Shown here in pieces: positions 3,237 to 17,966 of a stretch of 23,466 nt of DNA. The notes below the pieces were generated by a model that was given only the letters and a program-made list of their open reading frames with translations, was not told the DNA's origin and made no database searches. Position numbers and translations under genes: made by a program. The stretch spans positions 1 to 23,466 of the IMG/VR virus record IMGVR_UViG_3300043395_001694; one strand, given 5' to 3'. Source of the stretch: a virus. Every line of letters begins with the position of its first letter. Positions within the stretch are counted from its first letter, which is position 1.

Positions 3237-3251
3237 ACTAACCTCTATAAA

Positions 3252-3323
3252 CTCCACAACCTGGATTCGAACCAGGGACCAATCGATTAACAGTCGATGG
3301 CTCTACCGCTGAGCTATTGTGGA
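3252..3323 (-). tRNA. tRNA-Asn (GTT)
   Basis: A cloverleaf reads on the minus strand: acceptor TCCACAA pairs TTGTGGA, the D arm is GCTC/GAGC, the anticodon stem ATCGA/TCGAT encloses loop CTGTTAA (anticodon GTT), and the T arm is CCTGG-TTCGAAT-CCAGG. The discriminator is G and no CCA is encoded. Last tRNA of the cluster in the direction of transcription. Confidence 0.93.
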
Positions 3324-3329
3324 ATGAAA

Positions 3330-3500
3330 TCATGGTTGTTTAGTATCCATGAGAAATTCTACAGTATTTGCTATATCATTCATAGCATCACGCAGATGTG
3401 GTCGTTGTCCGCTTTCTTGACGGACAATCGGGCGATGATCATCTGTAAGAGACCAGCGCCATTGCCTCATTTCGACGCAATACCAGAGATTAATTTTCAT
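3330..3500 (-). CDS. Small conserved-looking cyanophage protein, 56 aa
   Basis: The frame starts MKINLWYCVEM at ATG 3500 and ends MDTKQP-stop. An upstream in-frame ATG at 3572 exists but lies inside the neighbouring gene; the start at 3500 overlaps that gene's stop region (ATGAAAATTAA), a typical translational-coupling arrangement, so I chose it. The segment WRWSLTDD followed by QESG and AMNDIANTVE resembles small proteins I recall from other T4-like cyanophages, function unknown. The first half looks like a small beta unit rich in Trp, followed by a helix. No signal peptide or membrane segment is visible. Confidence 0.6.
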   Translation of the reverse strand: MKINLWYCVEMRQWRWSLTDDHRPIVRQESGQRPHLRDAMNDIANTVEFLMDTKQP

Positions 3501-3645
3501 GTTTGAAATTTTCCAGTTTGAGCCAATTGAGGAGGGCGTTGATTTCCATTCTTTTTGCTTCACTAAGATCATATTGTTTATTGAAAAGGTAAAAATCTAG
3601 TGCCTCAATGGCAAGGTCTCGGTCGGGTTTTGAAATGAGTGACAT
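3490..3645 (-). CDS. Small hypothetical protein, 51 aa
   Basis: The frame reads MSLISKPDRDLAIEAL and ends ENFKHEN-stop. A longer reading from ATG 3705 would begin inside tRNA-Ala (3665-3737), so the internal ATG at 3645 is preferred. No strong ribosome site precedes 3645. The product looks wholly helical and acidic/basic mixed, and overlaps the next gene by 11 bases. It sits between tRNA-Ala and tRNA-Asn, so it is probably cotranscribed with the tRNAs. Function not recognised. Confidence 0.5.
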   Translation of the reverse strand: MSLISKPDRDLAIEALDFYLFNKQYDLSEAKRMEINALLNWLKLENFKHEN

Positions 3646-3664
3646 AAGAGTTATAATAAACTCA

Positions 3665-3737
3665 TGGAGAATAGGAGACTCGAACTCCTGACAGCCTGCT
3701 TGCAAAGCAGGTGCTCTACCAACTGAGCTAATTCCCC
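3665..3737 (-). tRNA. tRNA-Ala (TGC)
   Basis: The minus strand gives acceptor GGGGAAT/ATTCTCC (one G-U), D arm GCTC/GAGC, anticodon stem CCTGC/GCAGG with loop TTTGCAA (anticodon TGC), and T arm CAGGA-GTTCGAG-TCTCCT-like. Discriminator A, no encoded CCA. It reads GCA-type codons, which fits an AT-rich phage in a host of higher GC. Confidence 0.9.
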
Positions 3738-3738
3738 G

Positions 3739-3813
3739 TGGTCCTCTGTCTAGGAATCGAACCTAGTTTCCATGTGTGTTGTCCACCCGTCCTTACCAAT
3801 AGACTAACAGAGG
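3739..3813 (-). tRNA. tRNA-like element with degenerate anticodon arm (possible pseudo-tRNA)
   Basis: Most of a tRNA is intact on the minus strand: acceptor CCTCTGT pairs perfectly with ACAGAGG, T8-A9 are present, the D arm is GTCT/GGAC with ATTGGTAA loop, the T arm is CTAGG-TTCGATT-CCTAG, the discriminator is A, and CCA is encoded, unlike in its neighbours. The anticodon arm does not work. Positions 27-43 (GGTGG-ACAACAC-ACATG) give only 2-3 pairs, and the universal U33 is a C. By position the anticodon would be AAC (Val). An alternative register (GGGTG-GACAACA-CACAT) gives CAA and A33, also non-canonical. I cannot assign an amino acid; a decayed tRNA or a tRNA-like RNA with another role are both possible. 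Confidence 0.6.
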
Positions 3814-3814
3814 A

Positions 3815-3944
3815 GAGGGGAGTATTAGAGGACTCCCCATACGACTATCATAAAAATGATAGAAGGTGTACAATGCCGCCTTTCTTACTGCTTCCCCACG
3901 GTGGCAGTAAGTATCTCGACAAGGTTGGCGTCTAAGACTACCAA
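3815..3944 (-). ncRNA. Candidate structured RNA segment with three hairpins between tRNAs
   Basis: This 130-base gap lies between tRNA-Thr and the tRNA-like element and has no convincing ORF. Read on the minus strand it holds three perfect stems: CTTACTGC/GCAGTAAG (8 bp, 12-base loop, 3884-3911), CTATCAT/ATGATAG (7 bp, 4-base loop TTTT, 3845-3862) and GGGGAGT/ACTCCCC (7 bp, 8-base loop, 3817-3838). Three such stems in about 95 bases is more than I would expect by chance, though I could not compute a probability. No T-run follows any of them, so they are not ordinary intrinsic terminators. They could be tRNA-processing signals, a small RNA, or relics of a deleted tRNA. Confidence 0.4.
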
Positions 3945-4018
3945 AGCCCAAGGTCGGACTTGAACCGACGACCTACGGTTTACAAAACCGTTGCTCTATC
4001 CAGCTGAGCTACTCAGGC
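3945..4018 (-). tRNA. tRNA-Thr (TGT)
   Basis: The minus strand folds with acceptor GCCTGAG/CTTGGGC (two G-U), D arm GCTC/GAGC, anticodon stem ACGGT/ACCGT with loop TTTGTAA (anticodon TGT), and T arm GTCGG-TTCAAGT-CCGAC. Discriminator T, no encoded CCA. Its first 10 bases overlap the 3' end of the cpeT-like gene, whose TAG stop is formed by positions 8-10 of the tRNA. Confidence 0.9.
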
Positions 4019-4533
4019 ACTCTAACAAATTTGAACGCACCCCAATCAGATCCCCATACTTTATCATGATTTTCTGCATTTAGACCTTTATCAATAACAT
4101 GGTATTCATCTTTTGTAAGAGTTACCTCGTTCTGAACATAGGTCTTAATGCCATTCCAAGTTACCCAACACTCACAAGTAGAAGTTCCACCAGTGAAGAG
4201 TTCAGGACCAGTCTGTGACATAATTATATCGCATCCTGGGCGGTATGTCAAGGTTTCATCAGTGATAAGTTCAAGATTAGTTCCACCAACAAATCGTTTT
4301 GGATCTTCAATCTCATAATTTTTGAGACGGAATTGACCTTTTTCGATCTCCACATCAATCACAAATTGACGATATGGATTTTCTGGTAGATAGTTATATG
4401 CTTGCTCACCATAAAACCGTGTATCTCCAATTTTGCAATGCCTGACAGTAATCATGGCATAACGAGTTGGATGACATTGTGCTTGGTATTTATTGGAAAA
4501 TGTTCCTTCCAAATATTCAAGAAACTGGTTCAT
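4009..4533 (-). CDS. cpeT: CpeT/CpcT-type phycobilin lyase homologue (auxiliary metabolic gene)
   Basis: This 174-residue protein (MNQFLEYLEGTFSNKYQAQ...) matches the CpeT/CpcT chromophore-lyase family in pattern. It has an N-terminal EGTFSN-QA segment, a central NPYRQF region, a GCDIIMSQTG strand near residue 100, then STCECWVTWNG, and a C-terminal DKGLN---HDKVWGSDWGAF-FVRV segment, all features I recall from the family. Cyanobacterial members attach or help attach phycobilins to phycobiliproteins; phage copies may act on host phycobilisome pigments during infection, which is inference. Length is a little shorter than host proteins (about 200 residues). It overlaps the upstream gene by 17 bases and ends inside tRNA-Thr, so it is part of the tRNA-cluster transcript. 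No membrane segment. Confidence 0.8.
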   Translation of the reverse strand: MNQFLEYLEGTFSNKYQAQCHPTRYAMITVRHCKIGDTRFYGEQAYNYLPENPYRQFVIDVEIEKGQFRLKNYEIEDPKRFVGGTNLELITDETLTYRPGCDIIMSQTGPELFTGGTSTCECWVTWNGIKTYVQNEVTLTKDEYHVIDKGLNAENHDKVWGSDWGAFKFVRVPE

Positions 4534-4798
4534 CTGGTAAAACTTCAGGATTAACTAAATCTAACTCAAACAAAACTGGATGGCATTCTTCAGCAATAAG
4601 ATAGTCAGAATAACGGAAGATATCTTCCATAGTATATTCTTGATTGAGTGCTGCTTCAGCCAAGATCCACTTGTCATGTTTGTCGTTTTCTTCTAAGATA
4701 TCAAAAGCAAATGGTATGTTCTCAATATAATACATCAATACAGGTTCATTGTCGACAAAGACATGTTTTCTGGTGATTGTGTATCTGAAAACTGCCAT
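4517..4798 (-). CDS. Hypothetical protein, 93 aa, coupled to cpeT
   Basis: The frame reads MAVFRYTITRKHVFVDNE and ends LPDEPVS-stop. I prefer ATG 4798; a GTG one codon upstream (4801) is also possible. A GAGAG ribosome site lies about 10 bases upstream. The N-terminal half is rich in beta-type residues and the C-terminal half is acidic (EECHPVLFELDLVNPEVLPDEP). The gene overlaps the cpeT-like start by 17 bases, suggesting translational coupling and possibly a shared role, though I know no function for it. No membrane segment or signal peptide is visible. Confidence 0.65.
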   Translation of the reverse strand: MAVFRYTITRKHVFVDNEPVLMYYIENIPFAFDILEENDKHDKWILAEAALNQEYTMEDIFRYSDYLIAEECHPVLFELDLVNPEVLPDEPVS

Positions 4799-4818
4799 CA
4801 CATTTGATCTCTCAAAAT

Positions 4819-4842
4819 TTCCTGTTACTATTTACACAGGAA
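4819..4842 (-). terminator. Hairpin after tRNA-Leu, possible weak terminator or processing site
   Basis: On the minus strand TTCCTGT and ACAGGAA form a perfect 7-bp stem with a 10-base loop, followed by ATTTTG. It directly abuts the 3' end of tRNA-Leu. The T-run is short, so partial termination or tRNA 3' processing are both possible. Confidence 0.35.
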
Positions 4843-4915
4843 TACCCGTGGTCGGATTCGAACCGACACTGGAGGGATTTTAAGTCCCCTGTCTCTGCCG
4901 TTGGACTACACGGGC
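4843..4915 (-). tRNA. tRNA-Leu (TAA), short variable loop
   Basis: The minus strand gives acceptor GCCCGTG/CACGGGT, D arm GTC/GAC, anticodon stem GGGGA/TCCCT with loop CTTAAAA (anticodon TAA), a 5-base variable loop CCAGT, and T arm GTCGG-TTCGAAT-CCGAC, with discriminator A and no CCA. The anticodon is that of tRNA-Leu, but bacterial tRNA-Leu normally has a long class II variable arm, which is absent here (73 bases in total). Confidence 0.85.
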
Positions 4916-4919
4916 AAGG

Positions 4920-4992
4920 TGCTCCTTGAGGGGATCGAACCCACCTTAGCCGAATTATGAGTTCGGTGCATTCGCCAGATTGCTAAAGGAGC
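4920..4992 (-). tRNA. tRNA with CAT anticodon (Met, or Ile after lysidine modification)
   Basis: The minus strand gives acceptor GCTCCTT/AAGGAGC, D arm GCA/TGC, anticodon stem CCGAA/TTCGG with loop CTCATAA (anticodon CAT), and T arm GTGGG-TTCGATC-CCCTC with one T-T mismatch. Discriminator A, no CCA. The first acceptor pair is G-C, so it is not a typical bacterial initiator tRNA, which has an unpaired first position. An Ile(k2CAU) identity cannot be excluded, but Ile(TAT) next door makes Met more likely. Confidence 0.85.
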
Positions 4993-4995
4993 GAA

Positions 4996-5067
4996 TAGGG
5001 ATACTGGGAGTTGAACCCAGACTAACCCGTTATAAGCAGGCCGCTCTAACCATTAAGCTATACCCCC
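4996..5067 (-). tRNA. tRNA-Ile (TAT)
   Basis: The minus strand gives acceptor GGGGGTA/TATCCCT, D arm GCTT/GAGC, anticodon stem GCCTG/CGGGT with loop CTTATAA (anticodon TAT), and T arm CTGGG-TTCAACT-CCCAG. Discriminator A, no CCA. TAT decodes ATA, a codon that is rare in many hosts but common in AT-rich phage genes. Confidence 0.9.
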
Positions 5068-5074
5068 ATGGGGT

Positions 5075-6037: not shown

Positions 6038-7267
6038 TCAGTTTAGGTAAATCAATGCACCTTGTATTTTTACGTTACCAGTTGCTTTTACCAACATTTG
6101 ACCAACAGAAATCAAATTCATGGCACCAGCAGTAGTTGCACTGAACACGCCAGTTGCAGTTGCATTTAAAACTCCAGTTGATGTCATTGTAAGTCCAGCA
6201 GGTATTGTCGCACTTAGAGCAGCTCCAGCAGAAATCGAAACACCACCAGTTTTTCCAGAAATACCAACAGAAGTTAAAGCAGAAATATTTACTGCTCCAG
6301 CAGGAAGTTCTAATAATGCCTTTGGATCAAATTTATCATTTGCTCCCAAACCAAGGGAACTAATATCAATAGATCCAACTCTACTCAATATTCTCGTTTT
6401 ACCTAAGAGAACATCTAATGAATACCCATGTGTTCTATCACTAATTAAAGGAACTCCAGTTAATCCAGTTGGGGAAGCACCATACACACTAGTTGCCATG
6501 ACACCAGCAACAATAATTTTATAGTCGCCAGTAATTCTATGCTGTAGTGTTCCAGAACTAGTTAGTGTTGTAGTTGCTCTAGGATCATATGTTATTGAAG
6601 TATCTTCGCCAGCTCCTATTTGTGTTTTTTGTCCAAATAAAATTTTATCTTCGTTAATATAATCTTGTTCAAATCTGCCAGCAGTCATTTTAATTGATCC
6701 ACTTTTTCCAGCAGCACCTGCTTGAATATGGATAGATGCATTTGCTTTAATGATAATATCTGATGCATCAATATACAATTTTGTTGCTCTGATATGCCTT
6801 TCACCTAATGTTTCTTCTTTATAATCTCCGTTTGATTTGATTCCAATTGCATAATTTGGTTCTTTTTCTCCAGATGAGTTATAATTGATAGTAAGAGGAT
6901 AAAGATAGTTATGGATACCTCCGTTTGCATTGATATTCAATCTTCCACTCGAAGCACCACGTTCTTTGGTTCTCATTCCAGTGTTCAGAGCAAGGCATCC
7001 ATCAGCACTTAAAGTTACCATGGAATCAGTTGGTCCAAAGATAACTAAAGCATCTGGTTCAAATCTTCCACTCGCACCGATATAAGATCTAACACTCAAT
7101 TCACAGTTGTCACCTTTCAATAGAGTTTTGATTTTTATACCAAGTTTTTGATCTTCACTCTCGTCTGGTTTTAATGGTTGGGCTGGTCCTTCCTCACTAA
7201 TTTTGTCGTAGGTTGATTTTCTTGCTGCCCTTGCCTCTGTCTTTGCATGTAAATCTGTGTGTGACAT
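6038..7267 (-). CDS. Beta-helix spike-like baseplate protein (gp5 C-terminal/VgrG-type)
   Basis: The 409-residue protein starts ATG 7267 (MSHTDLHAKTEARAARK...) with AGGAGG 8 bases upstream. After a charged N-terminus (residues 1-50), a beta-rich region runs to about 250. The C-terminal third is a regular array of short strands rich in Gly, Ala, Ser, Thr (VNISALTSVGISGKTGG, VSISAGAALSATIPAGL) ending GNVKIQGALIYLN. That ending is typical of the triple-stranded beta-helix of T4 gp5 and VgrG. I infer that it forms the membrane-puncturing spike as a separate polypeptide. It is 12 bases downstream of the gp5-like gene, which lacks such a helix, supporting a split of the T4 gp5 functions. No enzymatic motif is seen. 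Confidence 0.7.
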   Translation of the reverse strand: MSHTDLHAKTEARAARKSTYDKISEEGPAQPLKPDESEDQKLGIKIKTLLKGDNCELSVRSYIGASGRFEPDALVIFGPTDSMVTLSADGCLALNTGMRTKERGASSGRLNINANGGIHNYLYPLTINYNSSGEKEPNYAIGIKSNGDYKEETLGERHIRATKLYIDASDIIIKANASIHIQAGAAGKSGSIKMTAGRFEQDYINEDKILFGQKTQIGAGEDTSITYDPRATTTLTSSGTLQHRITGDYKIIVAGVMATSVYGASPTGLTGVPLISDRTHGYSLDVLLGKTRILSRVGSIDISSLGLGANDKFDPKALLELPAGAVNISALTSVGISGKTGGVSISAGAALSATIPAGLTMTSTGVLNATATGVFSATTAGAMNLISVGQMLVKATGNVKIQGALIYLN

Positions 7268-7279
7268 AATCTATACCTC

Positions 7280-10162
7280 CTATGGACAATCAACGTAACG
7301 ACCAGTACCAATCTTGGTAGATCCAACTCTCACGAGTGTATCGGTATCTAAACATCTAAATGAAGGAATTAATTTTGCACCAAAACCTCCACCTCCAATT
7401 ACAAAAATCTCTGGGTATGTAGAAAATGTTGTTTCTCTATCAAGTATTCTTGCTCCAATTACAAAACCTTTTTCATTAATAATTGCTTCAGCAACATCGG
7501 TTCTACCATCCACATAAATTGTTGGTGTTGTTGTATATCCAACTCCAGGTCTAATCAGAGTCATAGTATCCATGATACACCTAACTCCCTTACTGGATGG
7601 TAAATTTTTCTTGTAACCAAATCCAGATTTTGTTATTCTGATTTCTGTCACAAATCCATTTTCATCTAATAAAGCACGAGCAGCTGCTCCTTTTCCAGTT
7701 CCACTTATGAAAACATATGGTGGTTCAACATATGGAGAACCAGGATTTGTTACTGGAATTGAAATGATTCCACCATTGTCATCCGTGATAATATCTTCTG
7801 AATCTACTGATGGTTCTGTTGGAGGAGTATATACAGTTTCTATTCCACCTTCTCCAATACCATCTTCTAATTCATCTATAGTTTTATCAGTGACGATTCT
7901 CACATCAGTGTATGCTCCTTTTCCATCAATAGAAAATCTCATAACTTCATCCAATTCAATTGTTGTATCCTCTTCTATTCCTATTGTTACTTGAGCTGCA
8001 TTATTTTCTATAAAAGTATATCCACTTAATGACCCGCCTATAATATCGGATTGAGTTATGCTATTTCCAGTTAAAGTATAATAAACTATAGTTCCAGAAG
8101 GAACGTTTGATGTTGTAATTGTATAAACCACAAAATCTCCTTCTTCAACTGTTGATTTATTTGCTGTTACTTTATATTTTTCAAGTAATTTACCAGTGGC
8201 ATCAGTACCATCTCCAGAATTTGTAGTGTTATTGTTATCGTCTGGCAAAACTTTTTCTAGTATTTTATCTGGATTAACTTTTTCTGGAATAAAAGGTTTT
8301 GGTTGATCGCCATCGATATTATCTGGTGATGATTGCTTTTTCTTGATTACGCATCGTGCCTTTTTCTTAGTAAAAAGAATAGCAGTTCCACTGATTGGAG
8401 TATTATTCTCCAATATGATATAAAAATCCTCATCATTCTCTTTTGTGCTATCAAACAATGTTTGGATGCTGATAGTTTTTTGACTTTCGTTTGCTGAGAA
8501 TCCTACAATTCCATTGTTCTTTATGTAATCAGAATCATCATCTGCTGTTCCGTTTGCGGTTTCAAATAATATAGAGGAAGGAAGAGATATTGTCCCAGAT
8601 CTAGACACTGTAAATTTTGCAATCTCTCCTTCAGTAACTGTTATATCATCGATTGTATAAACTATTTTTTCTTTTGTTGTTACTGATGTGCCAGTTCCAC
8701 CGCCTGGCTTGAAAACACCACCAGTAAATCCAACTCCAGTGGTGGTTAGAGAATTTCCATCGTATGCTTCATTACATGTATAGATTGTATAATCTGGATT
8801 TGTAACTGGAAATAGATCGTCAATTCCTTTATCAATATCGTTAAGTAATTTATCCAGGAAGTTTTGTTTGTCCTCTTCCTCTTTGTTTTTATCTTTATCT
8901 GTAGATCCATCTGTGCATATCTTTCTCCAGTTTTCACAGATAAGATTTGGACCTGTACATGTAATGCCGAGGATTTGCATTGCTTTGGATAATACCTCAC
9001 CAATAATGTTTAGTGGTTCGGCAATAGCACCAAGGATTTCTTGTAGTGGTCCAAGAATTTCTCCAAGCAAGTCTTCGAGTGCCTTTGTGATTTCATTTAG
9101 GACTCCTTGAACTAACTTATCGACCTGACATGCAACCATTCTATAGACATCAGTGATGTATCCCATGAGAAGATCGGTTAGCCAATCTGCTAACCTCTCC
9201 CCAAGATCTTCCATGGAACAACCAACTTCAATCAAGTAACCATTGAACCACTTCGTAACTTCATTAAGTACGCTACCTTCTTTGTTCAATCCAAGTGTGT
9301 CATTGATAAGATCTTTAACACCAGCTTCTAATTTATCTATTACCCATCCTTTGCATTCTGCAATGAAGTCATTTAGCAAAGCAATTGCTCTTGAGATATA
9401 AGATCTGGCATCATCAATAACACCATATAATTCTCCAGTCGCTTTATTGACTAGAAAATCTCCCAACTGACCACCATTACTTTGAATGGCAGCAAGCATT
9501 TCTGCGACAACATTCTCTAACTTTTCACCAAACGTTGTTGCTCTTTTATCACATGTATCAGGTGGTTCTGCACAAAAATTTACTCTATTTGCAGCTTCTA
9601 TTTGTCTCGCAGTTGGTTGTGGTTTTGGTGGATTATCACTGTCATCTTCTTTTGATTCCGTCTTTCCCTTACCATCGCTAGTTGCTGTTGTTTTTGTCTT
9701 ACCAAGAGATCCCCTCTCCACTGGACTCCCACCATCAATATTAGGATTGATTAATGGATCTTTGTAATTTGAAAATGCGTTACACTCCCCTGGTTTGTAA
9801 TCTGCAATTGATGATGTTGATCCAGGAGTTTGTGGAAGTTGTCCCATGATGATAGGTTTTTGCCTATCATTATCCAAGTAAAAACCTAGCACCCACTGCC
9901 CAGGTTCTAATTGAGGATCTCCACCATTTCTGGGTCCCATGGGAGAAGTTACAGGCATCATAACCTGCGCCCATGGCAAGTCTTCTACCTTTGTAACCTC
10001 ACAAGATCTTACATGGGTTCCAACAATACGAACCTTGTATCTAAAATAACCCTTTGTGTTTTCTTTGAACTGCGAAGTATCCTCGATCTGACCGATCCAC
10101 CACTGGAAACCATCAGATCCAATCCTATAGACTGGCATGAGTTGCGATAATACTTCATCCAT
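7280..10162 (-). CDS. 5: gp5-like baseplate hub protein with Calx-beta domains, no lysozyme
   Basis: About 960 residues from ATG 10162 (MDEVLSQLMPVYRIG...); a TTG three codons upstream is possible. Residues 1-115 look like the gp5/VgrG OB-fold (WWIGQIEDTSQF, FRYKVRIVGTH, PWAQVMMPVTSP, PGQWVLGFYLDND, PIIMGQLP). Residues 200-420 form a long helical, Cys-containing segment. Residues 500-605 and 665-760 resemble Calx-beta repeats (VTEGEIAKFTVSRSG, NGTADDDSDYI, DEDFYIILEN; VEEGDFVVYTI). The last 160 residues hold two Gly-rich repeats (KSGFGYKK, RPGVGYTT) and end GRYVDCP. T4 gp5 (575 residues) carries a lysozyme domain in the middle; none is visible here. The protein should sit at the centre of the baseplate hub with the gp27-like protein. 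It follows the 70-residue gene almost directly. Confidence 0.8.
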   Translation of the reverse strand: MDEVLSQLMPVYRIGSDGFQWWIGQIEDTSQFKENTKGYFRYKVRIVGTHVRSCEVTKVEDLPWAQVMMPVTSPMGPRNGGDPQLEPGQWVLGFYLDNDRQKPIIMGQLPQTPGSTSSIADYKPGECNAFSNYKDPLINPNIDGGSPVERGSLGKTKTTATSDGKGKTESKEDDSDNPPKPQPTARQIEAANRVNFCAEPPDTCDKRATTFGEKLENVVAEMLAAIQSNGGQLGDFLVNKATGELYGVIDDARSYISRAIALLNDFIAECKGWVIDKLEAGVKDLINDTLGLNKEGSVLNEVTKWFNGYLIEVGCSMEDLGERLADWLTDLLMGYITDVYRMVACQVDKLVQGVLNEITKALEDLLGEILGPLQEILGAIAEPLNIIGEVLSKAMQILGITCTGPNLICENWRKICTDGSTDKDKNKEEEDKQNFLDKLLNDIDKGIDDLFPVTNPDYTIYTCNEAYDGNSLTTTGVGFTGGVFKPGGGTGTSVTTKEKIVYTIDDITVTEGEIAKFTVSRSGTISLPSSILFETANGTADDDSDYIKNNGIVGFSANESQKTISIQTLFDSTKENDEDFYIILENNTPISGTAILFTKKKARCVIKKKQSSPDNIDGDQPKPFIPEKVNPDKILEKVLPDDNNNTTNSGDGTDATGKLLEKYKVTANKSTVEEGDFVVYTITTSNVPSGTIVYYTLTGNSITQSDIIGGSLSGYTFIENNAAQVTIGIEEDTTIELDEVMRFSIDGKGAYTDVRIVTDKTIDELEDGIGEGGIETVYTPPTEPSVDSEDIITDDNGGIISIPVTNPGSPYVEPPYVFISGTGKGAAARALLDENGFVTEIRITKSGFGYKKNLPSSKGVRCIMDTMTLIRPGVGYTTTPTIYVDGRTDVAEAIINEKGFVIGARILDRETTFSTYPEIFVIGGGGFGAKLIPSFRCLDTDTLVRVGSTKIGTGRYVDCP

Positions 10163-10167
10163 AACAA

Positions 10168-10380
10168 TCAATCATCATAAACTCTACATTCCAAAGCACC
10201 TGGATTACTATCACAGAATAACTCAAGTGCTGAAGGATCATGATCCTCTCCAGGATGATTTGCTTTGTACGCTTCTAGCGCAGCAAGTTCTTCTTGAGTA
10301 TGCCTACGAGCTTGTGGAGATGTCTGTGGGTCATCAAGAATTTTCTTATCAGTTTCAATATGCTTGTCAATACTTTCCAT
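10168..10380 (-). CDS. Small acidic protein, 70 aa, between gp27-like and gp5
   Basis: The frame starts ATG 10380 (MESIDKHIETDKKILDD...) with GGAGG about 9 bases upstream. The first 45 residues form a predicted charged helical hairpin (SPQARRHTQEELAALEAY), and the C-terminus is Cys-containing (LELFCDSNPGALECRVYDD). I recall short proteins with a similar C-terminus beside gp5 in other cyanophages, function unknown; a hub-assembly or structural role is inferred from context. A CTAAATA motif lies 22 bases upstream of the start. Confidence 0.7.
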   Translation of the reverse strand: MESIDKHIETDKKILDDPQTSPQARRHTQEELAALEAYKANHPGEDHDPSALELFCDSNPGALECRVYDD

Positions 10381-10401: not shown

Positions 10402-11802
10402 TTATTTAGTTCCATGTGCTGATGGTTTGTTCTTCATACCATAACTGTCTCGCATAAGACGAAGTGTTGTAGTAAATTTACCACCACCATCGCCTTTTAC
10501 CTGACTGTATTCATGTGTCACTTCTTCTATTAGATAGACACCACTCGTCTCTTCATCATATGGTTTTTTAGTTCCTTCAACGTCAGACACTTTGTTTCTC
10601 AACCTGATATCAATTTTATCTCCAGCACATATCTGAGCATTTCCTGGTATTACAATCACACCCTTTTGATTCTTAAGAGTAGAGAATCTTGTTAATGATT
10701 GTGCCATGAAATGCTTCTGCCAATCAGCATATCTAGATGGATTAGATGAAGATTCGTATGGTGTTCCTGGTTCGATATTATTCTGCCATGTTTCATGATC
10801 CAATAACATAGACATAATGCGAGTTGGATACTTACCCATCTCTTTCTCTGTATAACTAGCAGTCTCCTGACTTCCTAAACCTTCACGAGACTTATATGTT
10901 TCACTCATATTATATGGATACTCTTCATACTGACCAGTAGTTGGATTAAAGAATACCATGAGACTTGCGTACTTTCCTTCTCTTAAGTTGGTAAGTAAGT
11001 CCAACTCAGCAGTAAATTGTGAGCTGAGGATAGTAAATACTGGATCAGATGCATCAGTATTTGCTGGGAAATCTATGTAAGGACCCCATGGTGGTAAGAT
11101 ATTTCCTGCTGCTGCTTTCTCCCCAACTTCGGCACATAATGCATCGACAGAGAAGAAATTATATCCTCTCAAATTTTCCCAGAAAAAATATCCTGCAGTA
11201 CCCTTTAAACTTTCACTAGTGGTTTGCAAACTTGTGCTTCCAGCAGTAGATTTCTTCTCTTCCTTTGGAACAGTCTTTGGTCTAAACGAACATGCAATAT
11301 CAAATGGTCTTCTCCTATTGGGAAGCATCTTGAAATCAAACTGCGAATTTTGTGAGTAAAGTTTCTTCTCTGATTTCAATTCTGTATGTAATAACTTATC
11401 GATAATTGCTTCTGCCTTTCCAGATAATGGTGTTTGAACTCTTACACCTTCATTAATTAATGCTTCTCTTGAAATCAATCCAAGAGTATAGATTTGCTTC
11501 TTATCTTGTACGATTCTATTGGAAACTTTCCAAACATATAATGTATATTTTGTGGGACCTTTTTGTAATACATCTTGTATTTCTATCTCTACTTTTTCAA
11601 ATCCTTGAATTGGTAAGTCATTATACAATCCACCACTATCTGCTACAACGATACTGCCAGCAATAAATGGTGACATGATACTCTCGTTGTAGTTAAATAC
11701 ACCAACCAACGCCTTGATATCAAAGTTCTTCTTGCCATCTGCAGAATAGATGACACACTTTTTTAATGAAAATGATCTTGATTGTTGTTGTTCTTTTGCC
11801 AT
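10402..11802 (-). CDS. gp27-like baseplate hub protein
   Basis: The 466-residue protein starts ATG 11802, overlapping the previous stop (TAATG). The N-terminal half carries DIKALVGVFNYNESIMSPFIAG, GFEKVEIEIQD and a YTLYVWKVSNR--Q segment, a pattern I associate with the T4 gp27 hub family (391 residues in T4). Near residues 195-235 a Ser/Lys-rich insert precedes FFWENLRGYNFFSVDALC, and the C-terminal part (CAGDKIDIRLRNK, YLIEEVTHEYS, TTTLRLMRDSYG) matches the tube-like domain of such hub proteins. It should trimerise as a ring that joins the tail tube and the gp5 spike. Adjacent gp5-like and tape-measure genes agree. Exact homology should be confirmed by profile search. Confidence 0.7.
   Translation of the reverse strand: MAKEQQQSRSFSLKKCVIYSADGKKNFDIKALVGVFNYNESIMSPFIAGSIVVADSGGLYNDLPIQGFEKVEIEIQDVLQKGPTKYTLYVWKVSNRIVQDKKQIYTLGLISREALINEGVRVQTPLSGKAEAIIDKLLHTELKSEKKLYSQNSQFDFKMLPNRRRPFDIACSFRPKTVPKEEKKSTAGSTSLQTTSESLKGTAGYFFWENLRGYNFFSVDALCAEVGEKAAAGNILPPWGPYIDFPANTDASDPVFTILSSQFTAELDLLTNLREGKYASLMVFFNPTTGQYEEYPYNMSETYKSREGLGSQETASYTEKEMGKYPTRIMSMLLDHETWQNNIEPGTPYESSSNPSRYADWQKHFMAQSLTRFSTLKNQKGVIVIPGNAQICAGDKIDIRLRNKVSDVEGTKKPYDEETSGVYLIEEVTHEYSQVKGDGGGKFTTTLRLMRDSYGMKNKPSAHGTK
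10403..10409 (-). promoter_or_regulatory. Late-type motif (CTAAATA) before the 70-aa gene
   Basis: The minus strand reads ACTAAATA, overlapping the stop codon of the gp27-like gene and lying 22 bases upstream of ATG 10380. The same ACTAAATA occurs upstream of gp26 and gp4. It may give extra late transcription of the gp5 genes, but coincidence with codons ACT AAA TAA is possible. Confidence 0.4.
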
Positions 11803-14600
11803 TATGATATGGATGCTAGATGCAGATCTTTAAATATATTTCCTACTGGTTGTGCCTCGTCAGACGAATCTGAAGGCATAGGAACTGGAACTGTATTAGT
11901 ATTATTTACACGTATAATCTGAACACTTGTTGCCATCTGTTCTTCTAATGGTGCCATCGCTATCAGTTTTTCTGTCTGTCCAGCATTTGCTCCGTATCCA
12001 GTAGGGTTACCAAACTGATCATACTTACCAGTAAATCCTTTTCCTGCTGGTAGATTCATTTGTTTTTTGATTCTTTCTAGTTCAAGTTCTCTAGCATAGG
12101 GATTATTAAGAGGAGATGCTCCTTTACTTCCACCACCAAACATACCAAATAATCCTGCTACTTGATTGTTTGGTACAATAGTTCCATTTTCTTTTGGAAC
12201 AAAAAGTTCTGGTCCTTCTTCTCCTACCATATAAGGAGTCTTTGCTATTACTGGTCCCCCACCAGCTCTACGTTTTGGTGTTTGATCTGGTTTTGGTGGC
12301 GGTCCTTTTGGTCCATCTCTGGTAATTGTGGCACCATTATCAATACCATCTCCACTCAATTCTTCAACTGGTCCTTTCAACATATCTTGAACACCACGAA
12401 TAGCAGACCCAACGGGATCTCTAACCACTTCATTTACTTTTTCAATTGTTTCTCCAACTTTTGACATCAAAGAAGTTTGTGCTTTTGGTGGTGTTGCTTT
12501 TGGTTTATCTTCTTTTTTCTCTTCTCTCTTAGTAAAGAATGGTTGCTCCATTTTAAATTTACTTAGAGGATCAAATTTTCCAGTTATTACTCCACCGTTC
12601 CAACCAGTTCCAGTTTCCCAGTGTAAATGTGGTCCAGATGAATCACCAGTGCTACCAACCTTACCAATAATATCTCCCTTCTTTACTGGACCACCACGCT
12701 TATATCCACCGAGCATATGACCATATAAATGGTGGATATTTTGGTTATCTTTGAATACCAAAAAGTTTCCCCAACCTCCGTTTAATGAATCCGAATCTAC
12801 AATTTCACCATCACTAATTGCTCTAAGAGGTGTTCCAGAATTTGCGGCGATATCTGTTCCCCCATGATTTCTACCTCTGGAAGGTGCATATCCATAGTCT
12901 TCAGTTTTTGTGAGTGTTATACCAGTATCAGGATCTGTATATTCATACCCTCCACCCTGTAGTTGTCGTAATGCTCTGGATACTGGATTATTTCTCAAAA
13001 AGTTTCCAACATTATCTGCAATATTTTTAAAGAAATCAATAACATTTGTCAATAGATTCTGCAAGATACCAGGAAGAGATGGTTTAGCAAAGTATTTTTC
13101 ATATCCCTCTGCATATAATCTACCAAACTTCACCTTGTTCTTTGCTTCATAATCTAATTCATACTGATACATCTTTTTGAATAGATCTGGAGATAGATCT
13201 GTTACTCCTGGTCTCTTATTTGAAAACGTAGATCTTCTAGTCAATCCACCTTCGGCAAAAGGTACTGCTCCACTATCTCTAGCAATAAGTGCCGCATCAA
13301 TAGCAACAGATCCAGCAGTTCCTAACCCAGGAATAGTACTAGCAGCACCAGATGCTAACTCTAAACCAGCACCAAGAAAATCTCCCTTTGCTGCTCTTTC
13401 CAAAGCAAAGAATGTTCCTAAACCTAAACCAACTAGTGGTATCTTTTTACCTAAGAACTTAGCAGCACCTTTCTCAAGTCCAGCTTCCGCTGCTTCTTTT
13501 CCAGCATTCTTTACTACTGTTTCTGCAACTTCTTTTCCAACAGTTTTTTCTAATGCTTTACCAGTAAGCTTAGATGCTATCTTACCACCAGCACCTTGAG
13601 CCAGTTTTAATCCTCTGCCAGCAAGGAACTTACCAATTACAGCGCCACCAAGAACTTTAGAAATTGATCCGCCAATTCCTCCACCATCTGATCCTGGTCC
13701 CTTATCATTATCTTTTATTCGACTAGTTCCAGATGATGATTTTTGTTGCTCCATGCTAATCTCTTCGTTGAGAGATTCTTGAGCATCCAATCTTTTCTGG
13801 TCTAATTGCTTTTTGTTTGTGGCAATTCTTGCCATGGCAGATGTCTGTAGATCAACTGCCTGTGTAACTTTTGTAATTAATACAGTCGTATCTTGGAATC
13901 CTTTTGTGAGTGTATCACTTTGTATTCTAAATGCATCTGATACGGCAGCAATATTAGTATCAGATACTTCAGATAGTTCTATAAGTTTTTGAAGATGACT
14001 TTCCATTCTCACAAAAGTCTTCATCATAGACTTCATGAGACTAGATCTTTTCTTCTTTTTTGTTTCTGGTTTTTGTTCTTCTTCTGGTTCCTTTGCTGGA
14101 GGAAGTAGATTAGTTTTTGGTACGACAATAGGTTGCTTTTCTGGTACAGTTCCTTCTCCCCATGGGTCTTCAATAATATCCGTCGTCAGTTCTACTGCCT
14201 GCTCTACTTCTTTCTCTACTTTCTTTCCGTTCAGTCTATCTGCAATTCTCTGTGCCGCTTGACGATCTTCTATTTTTTGATCAATCTGTTCTTGGAATGG
14301 TTTCTCAAGATACTCTTCTACTAACCACTCTTGATATTTCTGCTGCCTCTCCATCCACTGTATTGGAGTACCACTACTCTGATCTAAAGAAGGATATCCA
14401 CGAGGATCTTTCTTTAAATTTTCAATCAATCTATCAGCATCTGCCCCAGTTAAATTTACATACGAAGAATAGTGCTCACCATTTGTAGGTCTTCCAGTAA
14501 GACGAGCCTTTAAAGTATTCCACAAAGGAGATTGTGGTCTAACATAAGACCACGGAATTTGTGGATCTAGTATTCCTTCTGGTGGTTCTGGTAGTCTCAT
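11802..14600 (-). CDS. Tape-measure-like tail protein with M23 peptidase domain
   Basis: The 932-residue protein starts ATG 14600, overlapping the preceding stop by 4 bases. Residues 100-280 are helical/coiled and charged. Residues 315-450 form a hydrophobic Gly/Ala-rich region (KKIPLVGLGLGTFF, GDFLGAGLELASGAAS) shared with the next protein upstream. Residues 570-670 form an M23 (LytM-type) metallopeptidase with H579-x3-D583 (NHGGTDI), H628 (LYGHM) and H658-L-H660 (GPHLHWE), so the zinc and catalytic residues are intact. Near residue 782 the phrase GGPVIAKTPYMVGEEGPELFVP is typical of tape-measure C-termini. Inferred role: tail length or central tail protein that cuts peptide cross-links during DNA entry. 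T4 gp29 (590 residues) has no such enzyme domain. Confidence 0.72.
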   Translation of the reverse strand: MRLPEPPEGILDPQIPWSYVRPQSPLWNTLKARLTGRPTNGEHYSSYVNLTGADADRLIENLKKDPRGYPSLDQSSGTPIQWMERQQKYQEWLVEEYLEKPFQEQIDQKIEDRQAAQRIADRLNGKKVEKEVEQAVELTTDIIEDPWGEGTVPEKQPIVVPKTNLLPPAKEPEEEQKPETKKKKRSSLMKSMMKTFVRMESHLQKLIELSEVSDTNIAAVSDAFRIQSDTLTKGFQDTTVLITKVTQAVDLQTSAMARIATNKKQLDQKRLDAQESLNEEISMEQQKSSSGTSRIKDNDKGPGSDGGGIGGSISKVLGGAVIGKFLAGRGLKLAQGAGGKIASKLTGKALEKTVGKEVAETVVKNAGKEAAEAGLEKGAAKFLGKKIPLVGLGLGTFFALERAAKGDFLGAGLELASGAASTIPGLGTAGSVAIDAALIARDSGAVPFAEGGLTRRSTFSNKRPGVTDLSPDLFKKMYQYELDYEAKNKVKFGRLYAEGYEKYFAKPSLPGILQNLLTNVIDFFKNIADNVGNFLRNNPVSRALRQLQGGGYEYTDPDTGITLTKTEDYGYAPSRGRNHGGTDIAANSGTPLRAISDGEIVDSDSLNGGWGNFLVFKDNQNIHHLYGHMLGGYKRGGPVKKGDIIGKVGSTGDSSGPHLHWETGTGWNGGVITGKFDPLSKFKMEQPFFTKREEKKEDKPKATPPKAQTSLMSKVGETIEKVNEVVRDPVGSAIRGVQDMLKGPVEELSGDGIDNGATITRDGPKGPPPKPDQTPKRRAGGGPVIAKTPYMVGEEGPELFVPKENGTIVPNNQVAGLFGMFGGGSKGASPLNNPYARELELERIKKQMNLPAGKGFTGKYDQFGNPTGYGANAGQTEKLIAMAPLEEQMATSVQIIRVNNTNTVPVPMPSDSSDEAQPVGNIFKDLHLASIS

Positions 14601-17071
14601 CCTACTGCAACCTCAGTGAATATTGGTGAGAGATCCCTTCTAGAAATACCAACCCTAGAAGAATCATGTTTGGGAACTGCCGCGCTAGAACCTCCACCAT
14701 TATTAATTAGCGACACCTGAACATTTGCTCCACTTGTTGTTTTTGCCAGGGCAACCTCTTGAGACTTACTCGATAAAGCAGTTGCTTGTCTATCATCTCC
14801 AGCAGGTTGTGTAAGAGATCTACCTTTTTCTATGAACATATCTTTTAATCCAATATTAGCATTATTGGTTGTAGATATATCTTGATTACCAGGAAGGTAC
14901 GCTTTTGTTGTATCATATAATTTCCATCCATCTCGTTCACGTACAGCTTTGTATTTGTTTTCTGGACCAAATGAGAAGCTTCCTCCTAGAGGAACTCCAA
15001 AGTTATCACCAATCCCTTTCAACCAGTCTGGTCCAGTTGGTTTGTTTGGTGGTGGAGGTGGTGTTTGTGCATTTGCTTCTGCAAGATTTTGTTGATAAAT
15101 CTGCATAGACTGTTTTATAGTTCGTGAAGTTTGATTATATCTTGGTCCCAGACCAGACCATATATTATTTGCCTTAATCAATTGAGACTCTGTAATATTT
15201 TCTATATCAACTCCACCAGCTCTGGCTAGATGCAGTAAGATTGAATTTTGAGTCTTTGCATTGAAAATATCAGTACTCTTAAATGTTCCCCTGTCTAACA
15301 ATCCTTGTAATGTATCTGGCATTAACTGTGGTGCTCCAGTTGCTCTGGATCCAGATTTATATCCCATAGATCCACCACCAAATCTCTGTGGAAGATTGCC
15401 AGACAACATACTTTCCTTCACTTCACCAAGAGTCATTTGCGTTAGTTGAGGAATAACATTTCCACCATATACTTTAGTATAACCATCTTCTCCAGCAGTT
15501 CCTTCAACTTCTCTGACTGTAGCAATAAATGCTTTTTCTTTTGCGGTGTCTGCTTCTACAGAAGCAGCATCTAATTCCCCATTTCCTGGAGGACCGCCTG
15601 GTGGTGTATAATCTGGGTCAAAAATACCACCAGCACCTTTCAGCAAAGTGATTAGTGTTTCTCCAAACTTCTGCCAACCACCTCTGTTCTCATAGTATTC
15701 TTTAAGTCCTTCTGCTTGAACATCAGCAAACTTATTTTTATTCCTTTGAATAGCATCAAGTCGTGCCTTATTCATCATGTCAAATGTTTTCTTATTCCAT
15801 GGTGTAATCAACTCAGGATCCTTTCCTTCACCAACAACACCTAAGGTTGGTTTAGTAACCATACCACCCTTAGCAAATGGGATTGCTCCACCATCTCTCG
15901 CTGCGATGATACCATCAACACCCAACGATGCTGCTGTTCCTGCACCAGGAACCATGCTAGCAGCACCAGAGGTCAGTTCCAGACCAGCACCAATATAATC
16001 ACCCTTCATCGCTCTCTGAGCAGCAAACAGGGCACCTACACCAAGACCCAGCAGAGGTATCTTCTTAAGACCACTCTTCAAACCAGCTTTAGCAAATGCC
16101 TTTCCAGCACCTTTGGTTATAAATTTGGCAGCACCCTTACCACCCATGGAAATTGCTGCTCTCTTGGCTGCTCTACCAGCGCCACGTCTTGCAATTTTCT
16201 GTGCCAAGGCAGAGGCACCAAACATTTTACCAAAAAATCCACCTTCCGATCCACCTTTACCAATTTTCCCAAACTCTTTTACTGATGCGTTACCCGCGCC
16301 ACCATCTTGACCCTCAAGCAGCGCCTCTTCATCTAATGCCTGCTGTCTATCAATATTTTTTGCATCTAAATTCTTCTGCTCTTGGTCCAAACGAACCATA
16401 GTAGCAGTTTGTTTTTGTATAGATCCCAATAATGTATAGAGTGCCTTACTGAGACCATCAAACCCAGAGGTAACAACTTGACTCTGCTTATTAATGATCT
16501 CAATTAAACCTTCTGGAACTGATGTTGTATTTGTAAATTTCTCAGATAATCTTGTTAGTTGTATCTCTATCCCAGCAAGAGCAGATGCCATCGCTTCGTT
16601 GATGGCAGCACGACTAGATCTTGATGATTTTTTCTCACCCTCTTCCTTATTCTTTTCGGTCTTTGGTTTTCTACCAACCATAGAATCTTTTGCTTCTACT
16701 TCTGGTAAAGAATAATCAAATCCTTCTCGATATCTTCCTTGTCTAGATTTTGTGGCATCTCTACCACCAGGAACATCTTTATCGAAAAAACTTTCTACTC
16801 TTCCACGATTTCTAGCAATCTTATCGCCACCAAACTGACTACCTAATGCCTTTCTAAAGAAAGATCCTCTACCAAATCTCTGTGAGAATTCTTCTTGTGT
16901 TAGTCCTCCTTCTTGACCAACTTTTAATTTATTTCTTGCGTACTTTTTTTCTGTACCTGCCATGTTTTCGGCAGATTTTATCTTATCCCAAGAGAGCTTG
17001 GCAATCTGAGCAACAACATTTTTGTCGCCCCTAGTATCACTAAGACCAGCTGTTCCTGATGAAACTGCCAT
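14597..17071 (-). CDS. Tape-measure-like tail protein with muramidase-like domain
   Basis: The 824-residue protein starts ATG 17071, overlapping the stop of the -1-frame gp51-like ORF (TAATG). Residues 150-260 are helical. Residues 285-400 form a Gly/Ala-rich hydrophobic region (KKIPLLGLGVGALFA, GDYIGAGLELTSGAAS) closely matching its downstream neighbour. Residues 401-425 (GGMVTKPTLGVVGEGKDPELITP) resemble a tape-measure motif. Residues 510-660 look like a phage muramidase of the lambda-lysozyme/GH104 type: a Glu-containing REVEGT (E521/E523), Y--VYGG, then ATGAPQLMPDT near 577-587. Catalytic residues are suggested, not proven. The C-terminus (GANVQVSLINNGGG) resembles that of T4-like hub proteins. 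Together with the M23 protein it would supply wall hydrolysis in the tail. Confidence 0.7.
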   Translation of the reverse strand: MAVSSGTAGLSDTRGDKNVVAQIAKLSWDKIKSAENMAGTEKKYARNKLKVGQEGGLTQEEFSQRFGRGSFFRKALGSQFGGDKIARNRGRVESFFDKDVPGGRDATKSRQGRYREGFDYSLPEVEAKDSMVGRKPKTEKNKEEGEKKSSRSSRAAINEAMASALAGIEIQLTRLSEKFTNTTSVPEGLIEIINKQSQVVTSGFDGLSKALYTLLGSIQKQTATMVRLDQEQKNLDAKNIDRQQALDEEALLEGQDGGAGNASVKEFGKIGKGGSEGGFFGKMFGASALAQKIARRGAGRAAKRAAISMGGKGAAKFITKGAGKAFAKAGLKSGLKKIPLLGLGVGALFAAQRAMKGDYIGAGLELTSGAASMVPGAGTAASLGVDGIIAARDGGAIPFAKGGMVTKPTLGVVGEGKDPELITPWNKKTFDMMNKARLDAIQRNKNKFADVQAEGLKEYYENRGGWQKFGETLITLLKGAGGIFDPDYTPPGGPPGNGELDAASVEADTAKEKAFIATVREVEGTAGEDGYTKVYGGNVIPQLTQMTLGEVKESMLSGNLPQRFGGGSMGYKSGSRATGAPQLMPDTLQGLLDRGTFKSTDIFNAKTQNSILLHLARAGGVDIENITESQLIKANNIWSGLGPRYNQTSRTIKQSMQIYQQNLAEANAQTPPPPPNKPTGPDWLKGIGDNFGVPLGGSFSFGPENKYKAVRERDGWKLYDTTKAYLPGNQDISTTNNANIGLKDMFIEKGRSLTQPAGDDRQATALSSKSQEVALAKTTSGANVQVSLINNGGGSSAAVPKHDSSRVGISRRDLSPIFTEVAVG

Positions 17072-17256
17072 TACTTCTTCTGCTTCTCTTGCTCTTGTTT
17101 GAGGTTATCGAGATATTGCAATAGCAGAGAAACATATACCTGCCTCTCCCATGGATATAGATTTTCAATCTCTGTCAAGCTATATTTATGGTGCTGGATC
17201 AAAGCAAAGTTAGTTTTATAATACCCTTCCAGAGTATTGTGGAAGAGTGCTACCCG
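17071..17256 (-). CDS. gp51-like tail-assembly extension in the -1 frame of gp26 (no start codon)
   Basis: The -1 frame after gp26 encodes 61 residues (RVALFHNTLEGYYKTNFAL... ending LKQEQEKQKK) and stops with TAA overlapping the tape-measure ATG. The -1 frame is open only from 17286 and contains no ATG, GTG or TTG before the segment, so independent initiation looks unlikely. Its core (LTEIENLYPWERQVYVSLLLQYL) is the kind of pattern seen in tail-assembly chaperone extensions and T4 gp51-type proteins. A slippery site T-TTT-TTC at 17256-17262 would join it to gp26 residue 237, giving a 298-residue fusion. It is a strong candidate for a programmed frameshift product. Confidence 0.75.
   Translation of the reverse strand, partial: RVALFHNTLEGYYKTNFALIQHHKYSLTEIENLYPWERQVYVSLLLQYLDNLKQEQEKQKK
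17183..17190 (-). promoter_or_regulatory. Possible internal late promoter (CATAAATA)
   Basis: The minus strand reads CCATAAATATAG, identical over 12 bases to the sequence upstream of gp54 (18884-18891), 112 bases before the first tape-measure ATG. It lies inside the gp51-like coding frame, so selection for codons cannot be excluded. Confidence 0.3.
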
Positions 17257-17262
17257 AAAAAA
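17224..17262 (-). promoter_or_regulatory. -1 programmed ribosomal frameshift signal
   Basis: Minus strand: slippery heptamer T TTT TTC (17262-17256) in gp26 frame, then GGG and the TAG stop (17252-17250). An 8-base spacer (17255-17248) leads to an 8-bp stem with one T-G pair (17247-17240 with 17231-17224) and an 8-base loop. The stem begins where stimulatory hairpins are normally placed. After a -1 slip the next codons are CGG GTA GCA, exactly the gp51-like frame. Confidence 0.72.
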
Positions 17263-17966
17263 CTTTGAAGACCCTCGATTGTGTATTCAGACTTCTCGCC
17301 AGTCTTTGGATTCACTACACTAAATGTATGCTGAAGTTTTGGTGCTGTATCAAAGAACTTCTGTACCTTTTCGAACTGTTCGTTGGTAAATTTCTCAACA
17401 AACTCAATCTTTTCTTTTCTTGTCGTCGTTGATTCGTCATAAACAGAATCTTCGTCAAACATTTGATCGATACTATCAGCAAGAATCTCAAATACATCAT
17501 CTGTTGTAACTTCTTTCTCTACAATAGATCCTTCAACAAATCTATTGAAACCAGGATACTTCATGATAATACCAACATTATCATCTAGCATAATTTTATT
17601 GGTATGTCCTTCTGGCTTGACAACTTTTACATCATGTAGATTAATTTGTGTCGTAACTCTTGTCTCACCATCATCTAGACATGTTACCTGCATCTCAATC
17701 ATTTCACCAACAGATGCTGCGCGAATTTTGAGAAAGATATATTCTAAATCAAAAGTGGCAAGATCATCAATTTTTACACCACGAGTTTGAATACATGCAG
17801 TAAGAAGATCACGTACAGCATTCTGAATAGTTTCTGAATCATCACTCTGTAGTGCTAAGAGTAATACCTTTTCTTCCTTAACTACAAACGGACGATACTT
17901 GATCTTCTTTCCAGTAGAAGGTACTTCAAGTTCATACGTTGGATGTTCTAACTTTGGCAAAGCCAT
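17250..17966 (-). CDS. 26: gp26 baseplate hub/tail-assembly protein
   Basis: The 238-residue protein starts ATG 17966 (MALPKLEHPTYELEVPSTGKK...) with GAGG about 8 bases upstream. It matches the T4 gp26 family (T4_baseplate, about 208 residues in T4): an N-terminal PTYELEVPSTGKKI-YRPF-VKEEK segment, ALQSDD--TIQNAVRDLL-ACI, a TFDLEYIFLKIRAASVGE motif near residue 90, and a C-terminal helix-rich EKFTNEQFEKVQKFF region. The gene ends at a slippery site, so a minor fraction of ribosomes may make a longer gp26-gp51 fusion. The gene directly precedes the tape-measure genes, as G/GT chaperones do in lambda. A late promoter and a repeat element sit upstream. Confidence 0.85.
   Translation of the reverse strand: MALPKLEHPTYELEVPSTGKKIKYRPFVVKEEKVLLLALQSDDSETIQNAVRDLLTACIQTRGVKIDDLATFDLEYIFLKIRAASVGEMIEMQVTCLDDGETRVTTQINLHDVKVVKPEGHTNKIMLDDNVGIIMKYPGFNRFVEGSIVEKEVTTDDVFEILADSIDQMFDEDSVYDESTTTRKEKIEFVEKFTNEQFEKVQKFFDTAPKLQHTFSVVNPKTGEKSEYTIEGLQSFFG

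Follow-up and report, generated by a model that had tools for sequence, protein, structure and literature searches.

The window analysed here is a whole virus record of IMG/VR (IMGVR_UViG_3300043395_001694, 23,466 bases), derived from a T4-like cyanomyovirus whose closest records are Synechococcus phages of the Kyanoviridae. Its tail cluster lies on the minus strand, in the order gp26, a gp51 frame, two large tandem genes that we call slot1 and slot2, a gp27-like gene, an open reading frame (ORF) of 70 amino acids, a gp5-like gene and a second gp5-like spike gene. The two slot ORFs, which overlap by four bases, are found where the initial annotation, made from the letters alone, had placed them (11802-17071). 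Their products appear to be tape-measure-class proteins, each fitted with a different enzyme for cutting the bacterial wall:

14597..17071, minus strand: slot1 protein, 824 amino acids, putative tape-measure-class protein with a lambda-lysozyme-like domain
15692..16627, minus strand: slot1 core common with slot2, residues 149-460 (helices, hydrophobic stretch, KKIPLLG, GAGLEL-SGA)
15071..15550, minus strand: slot1 lambda-lysozyme-like (transglycosylase) domain, residues 508-667, putative catalytic Glu523, from profile and predicted structure
11802..14600, minus strand: slot2 protein, 932 amino acids, putative tape-measure-class paralog with an M23 endopeptidase domain
13089..14063, minus strand: slot2 core common with slot1, residues 180-504
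12612..12869, minus strand: slot2 Peptidase_M23 domain, residues 578-663 (PF01551, E 5.3e-22; PDB 3slu, E 1.3e-16)
12207..12227, minus strand: VGEEGPE tape-measure-type phrase, slot2 residues 792-798

To judge from their sequences, slot1 and slot2 are true paralogs issued from an old duplication, as had been proposed at the outset. BLASTP aligns them with 111 of 330 residues identical (34%, 160 bits, E 1e-44; E 1.8e-27 after SEG masking), and reaches a raw score of 484, against a maximum of 125 among 120 window-shuffled controls. Both proteins display the same motifs, KKIPLLG at residue 336 and GAGLELTSGA at 361 in slot1, KKIPLVG at 385 and GAGLELASGA at 410 in slot2. The N-terminal halves are alike in part: similarity is significant from about residue 149 of slot1 and 180 of slot2 onwards, while the first 150-180 residues or so are unrelated (the first ~150 residues of the two proteins score 23, against a shuffled mean of 26). 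The N-terminus of slot1 resembles that of slot1 proteins of relatives and of some slot2 proteins, that of slot2 resembles S-CAM1 slot1 and Sf-CH1b slot2, and these likenesses across slots suggest a past reshuffling of N-termini, cores and enzymes. The two proteins had also been credited with an identical order of segments. This holds for the KKIPL and GAGLEL motifs but not for the VGE phrase, which stands ahead of the enzyme in slot1 (at 413) and behind it in slot2 (at 792), so that the domain order is only partly common.

The enzyme of slot1, previously described as muramidase-like, is a predicted wall enzyme, and specifically a lambda-lysozyme-like one. Direct searches of Pfam, NCBIfam and, with the single sequence, the PDB missed it, and an iterated profile alone detected it. 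The profile matches lambda lysozyme (1am7/3d3d) over the whole domain length (E 3e-8) and finds the domain in about twenty related proteins, from the one slot as well as the other, and in podovirus S-RIP1. An AlphaFold (AF2) model of the domain, built from an alignment of the window with IMG/VR rows, reaches a predicted local distance difference test score (pLDDT) of 91 and superposes on 3d3d with a Z-score of 15.7 (2.5 Å over 139 residues); the putative catalytic Glu and the Glu-Gly motif of lambda lysozyme are conserved. Lambda lysozyme is a transglycosylase, so the domain is better read as lytic transglycosylase-like. A narrow scan of IMG/VR with it returned a contig 99% identical as its sole match. 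The domain is ~51% identical to the one in S-RIP1 (L001 7846-8337), a likeness that suggests, from sequence, some exchange of domains between tail types. In slot2 the M23 peptidase that had been recognized is fully borne out, with all zinc ligands (HxxxD, HxH) in place (H579, D583, H628, H658 and H660); this part of the protein also matches PHROG tape-measure families, e.g. phrog_10030 and phrog_167.

In T4 the lysozyme is part of the hub protein gp5, whereas the window has its wall enzymes on two neighbouring proteins. The hub and spike genes follow slot2:

10402..11802, minus strand: gp27-like hub protein, 466 amino acids (phrog_350; T4-GC 15)
7280..10171, minus strand: gp5-like hub/spike protein, 963 amino acids, with OB fold and Calx-beta
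6038..7267, minus strand: second gp5-like spike protein (phrog_4540)

The gp5-like protein has kept its OB domain (PF06714 at 24.5 bits, slightly below the 25-bit cut-off) next to a Calx-beta domain, and a Pfam search gave no match to a lysozyme domain in it. With enzymes on the slots and none detected on gp5, sequence and structure prediction support the earlier proposal that the pair stands in for the gp5 lysozyme, cutting both glycan and peptide bonds. The PHROG family of the gp5-like protein bears the name tail lysozyme, even though no lysozyme domain was detected.

This arrangement is not a peculiarity of one phage. Relatives were counted at the 64 loci where the stretch from gp26 to gp27 could be read, S-RSM4 being counted by its annotation. 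Two large genes lie between gp26/gp51 and the gp27-like gene in 50 of them and a single one in the other 14, and the succession gp26/gp51, slot1, slot2, gp27, gp5 recurs in relatives. In 42 of 49 tandem pairs the similarity of the two proteins exceeds that of every one of 25 local shuffles. The enzymes vary. Among 50 slot1 proteins Pfam detects Phage_lysozyme2 (6), GH19 (3), VanY (2) and glucosaminidase (1); among 50 slot2 proteins it detects M23 (20), phage lysozyme (5), one each of VanY, SLT and CHAP, and others. The M23 motif H...D / H.H is present in 20 slot2 proteins and in no slot1 protein. The pair is thus a family trait with exchangeable enzymes; two tape measures in one tail, which the initial annotation called unusual, would be so against textbook phages, yet within this family pairs are the norm. 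One of the 50 slot1 relatives matches ADP-ribosyltransferase families (PF01129, PF03496), and tape-measure-class proteins of these phages may also carry enzymes that do not act on the wall.

Immediately upstream of slot1 lies what looks like the device by which many long-tailed phages produce their tape-measure chaperones:

17250..17966, minus strand: gp26 homologue, putative G-like tape-measure chaperone (PF12322)
17256..17262, minus strand: T_TTT_TTC -1 slippery heptamer at the gp26 end, found in 105/105 related genes
17071..17256, minus strand: -1 frame extension, gp51 homologue, 61 amino acids, whose TAA overlaps the slot1 ATG; the predicted gp26-51 fusion, GT-like, has 298 amino acids

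In the window gp26 ends with CAA AGT TTT TTC GGG TAG. TTT TTC after a codon ending in T occurs in every one of the 105 gp26 genes examined, which, being related, are not independent draws. The other Phe codons of these genes are TTT in 72% of cases, so that TTT-TTC would be expected in ~20% of them, and the codon ahead of it varies (AGT, AAT, TCT, GCT, GAT): the constancy of the T across five different codons is a sign of selection. The -1 frame is open from the heptamer into gp51 at 21 of 22 reference loci, S-SCSM1, possibly through an indel, being the exception; it is likewise open at all 83 additional loci, in two of them up to the contig end. Shortly 3' of the heptamer some genomes have a stem-loop (z -3.3 in the window and -4.1 in S-PM2, from mononucleotide shuffles) and others have none. 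On this basis a -1 frameshift at the end of gp26 is predicted in these phages.

The organization resembles that of lambda G/GT, with a -1 slippery site ending the first gene and a -1 extension just ahead of the presumed tape-measure gene; unlike in lambda, the chaperone family is that of T4 gp26/gp51. In T4 itself gp26 (L118 7803-8429, minus strand) and gp51 (8480-9229, plus strand) look like paralogs, gp51 having an extra C-terminal part. In a five-sequence search the two align with 20.5% identity over 161 residues (E 1e-5), and in the same small search space a profile of the cyanophage extension matches the C-terminus of T4 gp51, not gp26 (E 1.6e-7). This suggests that T4 may make from two genes what cyanophages would make by frameshift. 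A review of 2016 held the G/GT frameshift to be conserved in long-tailed phages, T4 excepted (PMC5009743), and cyanophage gp51 was noted to be without the first ~200 residues of T4 gp51 (Sullivan et al., 2010; PMC3037559). We found no published description of a gp26/gp51 frameshift in T4-type phages in the open-licence literature, which leaves its novelty unproven; if true, the conserved frameshift would end the status of T4-type phages as the exception to the G/GT rule.

We consider it somewhat probable that slot1 and slot2 are paralogous tape-measure-class proteins residing in the tail lumen, where they would be chaperoned and from which they would deliver their enzymes. In this scenario the two slots would descend from a tape-measure-class gene that was duplicated long ago; gp26 and its -1 frameshift product gp26-51 would chaperone both proteins, as lambda gpG and gpGT do with gpH; and the two, possibly combined in a mixed helical bundle, would stand side by side on the gp27/gp5-like hub, a common lumen tying their lengths to the same tail. 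At infection both would exit first and then cut the wall, the transglycosylase of slot1 acting on glycan strands and the M23 peptidase of slot2 on cross-links, thereby replacing the gp5 lysozyme domain in its function. It is conceivable, as a distinctly more tentative proposal, that most Kyanoviridae tails have such a mixed ruler (e.g. three copies of each paralog in six-fold symmetry, a three-plus-three bundle that we infer), chaperoned by gp26/gp26-51 and bearing swappable enzymes, T4 using its genes 26 and 51, themselves paralogs, instead of the frameshift.

Several lines of evidence speak for a tape-measure role, as initially proposed, and make it plausible if indirectly so: the position next to the chaperone, virion data, a correlation with tail length and weak profile matches. 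In all relatives examined the slot genes lie between the tail assembly chaperone gene, which directly precedes them, and the hub genes, and the neighbouring tail cluster contains no other ruler candidate. Both proteins were found by mass spectrometry in the virions of S-CREM2 (73 and 71 unique peptides) and S-SCSM1, where the authors took both for carried endolysins (PMC10665884, PMC9602691); matching by coordinates identifies S-CREM2 ORF208/209 and S-SCSM1 ORF213/214 as slot1/slot2. The lengths of the two proteins vary together (Spearman 0.76, n=50; independent contrasts r 0.55, p 4e-5), compared with r 0.015 for slot1 and gp27. Residues 382-437 of slot1 match the tape-measure family phrog_12798 weakly (E 9e-5), and 5 of 50 slot1 relatives match phrog_9570 weakly, with a match that may lie inside or outside the enzyme domain. 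A hydrophobic middle is also present, along with helices that are modelled with low confidence.

The comparison of tail and protein lengths, which had been recommended as a check, could be made with eight phages. Reported tails measure 418 nm in S-CREM2, 138 in S-N03, 129 in S-H34, 173 in S-SCSM1, 165 in S-CREM1, 124 in MS29, 113.6 in S-SZBM1 (treated as the extended value) and about 100 in S-SRM01 (sheath only). In seven of them tail length follows the longer slot (slope 0.148 nm per residue, intercept -3.5 nm, r 0.85). The slope agrees with cyanophage A-1(L), whose 1045-Å tail encloses a helical tape-measure bundle of six-fold symmetry, modelled as far as residue 689, which gives ~0.15 nm per residue; in this bundle of six chains, the distal ends of three were built as a tripod.

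A number of observations weigh against this interpretation. Without the three largest contrasts the co-variation of lengths falls to r 0.30 (p 0.04); the longer slot was chosen after five measures had been compared, and the lengths, obtained by transmission electron microscopy in different laboratories, are only eight. S-CREM2, at 418 nm, is far above the line of 0.15 nm per residue, possibly owing to the non-helical repeats that make up most of its slots. Its slot proteins (L019 5984-15055) are full of Ser, Thr and Asn and of FQQSMGSVAP-like repeats. An iterated profile found no similarity to the T4 tape measure gp29, homology with which may yet exist. The core of the full-length AF2 model of slot1 has low confidence (mean pLDDT 55), with long helices only within 150-255 (150-180 and 187-255), and a helical ruler ahead of the slot1 enzyme would be shorter than ~500 residues. 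Finally, relatives with a single gene build tails, e.g. S-CRM01 (140-170 nm), so that the second copy is dispensable in principle.

These single-gene relatives are in keeping with a rather unlikely alternative, namely that one tape measure only is present, most likely slot1, which adjoins the chaperone gene, the other protein being a derived, non-measuring lysin of the lumen or hub, comparable to the tail lysins found beside the tape measure in other myophages. T4, too, has one ruler, gp29; the rank correlation with tail length in the seven phages is 0.93 for slot1 and 0.68 for slot2; and slot1 of ACG-2014f weakly matches a tail-associated lysin family. By contrast, the co-variation of slot lengths after phylogenetic correction, the similar unique-peptide counts of the two proteins in S-CREM2 and the presence of enzymes in both slots tell against a single ruler. 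The related division of labour proposed by the initial annotation, with one protein setting the length and the other filling the hub, is not favoured either, given that lengths co-vary, that single-gene relatives exist and that enzymes occur in either slot. It is improbable that neither protein is a ruler, both being virion-associated lysins located elsewhere (e.g. in the capsid, as the S-CREM2 authors read their own data) or leftovers of purification: the low-confidence core model and the undetected gp29 similarity would fit, whereas the location between a G/GT-like chaperone and hub genes, the want of another ruler candidate in the neighbouring cluster and the length correlations would not. 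Two rulers in series, their lengths summed, would bring S-CREM2 (3021 residues at 0.15 nm, or 453 nm) near its reported 418 nm, and yet this is most improbable, for the other phages need the longer protein only, the tail of single-gene S-CRM01 is normal, and non-helical repeats make 0.27 nm per residue on one chain possible in S-CREM2.

Side-by-side paralogs in the lumen, the reading that we prefer, may be set against known systems. Tape measures with peptidoglycan hydrolase domains (e.g. phrog_10030, phrog_167) are, as far as is known, single genes. Like slot2, they place M23 inside a long tail protein whose middle is hydrophobic and which has a VGE-GPE phrase; here, unlike there, two tandem paralogs carry different enzymes. 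T4 has the tail module in common with the window (homologues of gp26, gp51, gp27 and gp5) and differs in the location of its lysozyme and in gp29, to which no similarity was detected. The hub protein gp15 of cyanophage A-1(L) (PDB 8kea) contains a lambda-lysozyme-like domain (Z 15.1 to that of slot1) and further tail-tip enzyme domains, so that its enzymes belong to the hub, whereas in the window they belong to two separate tape-measure-class proteins. Lambda lysozyme, which has the fold and Glu-Gly motif of the slot1 domain, is a free endolysin; the slot1 domain is part of a presumed virion tail protein.

What emerges is a widespread two-gene module, probably of the tape-measure class, with complementary wall enzymes, apparently unrecognized so far. 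Cyanomyoviruses are among the most abundant viruses of the ocean, and the literature that we found on them names no tape measure, the candidate genes being filed as hypothetical proteins or endolysins. The pair provides a ruler candidate and wall-entry enzymes together, with natural variants of length and enzyme at hand, and may exemplify a ruler made of two components.

Two further features adjoin or interrupt the cluster. The 70-aa ORF (10168-10380, minus strand) lies between the gp27-like and gp5-like genes, at the place where relatives have the carbon-metabolism regulator CP12. Next to the tail cluster, seven tRNA genes are grouped at 3251-5068, also on the minus strand.

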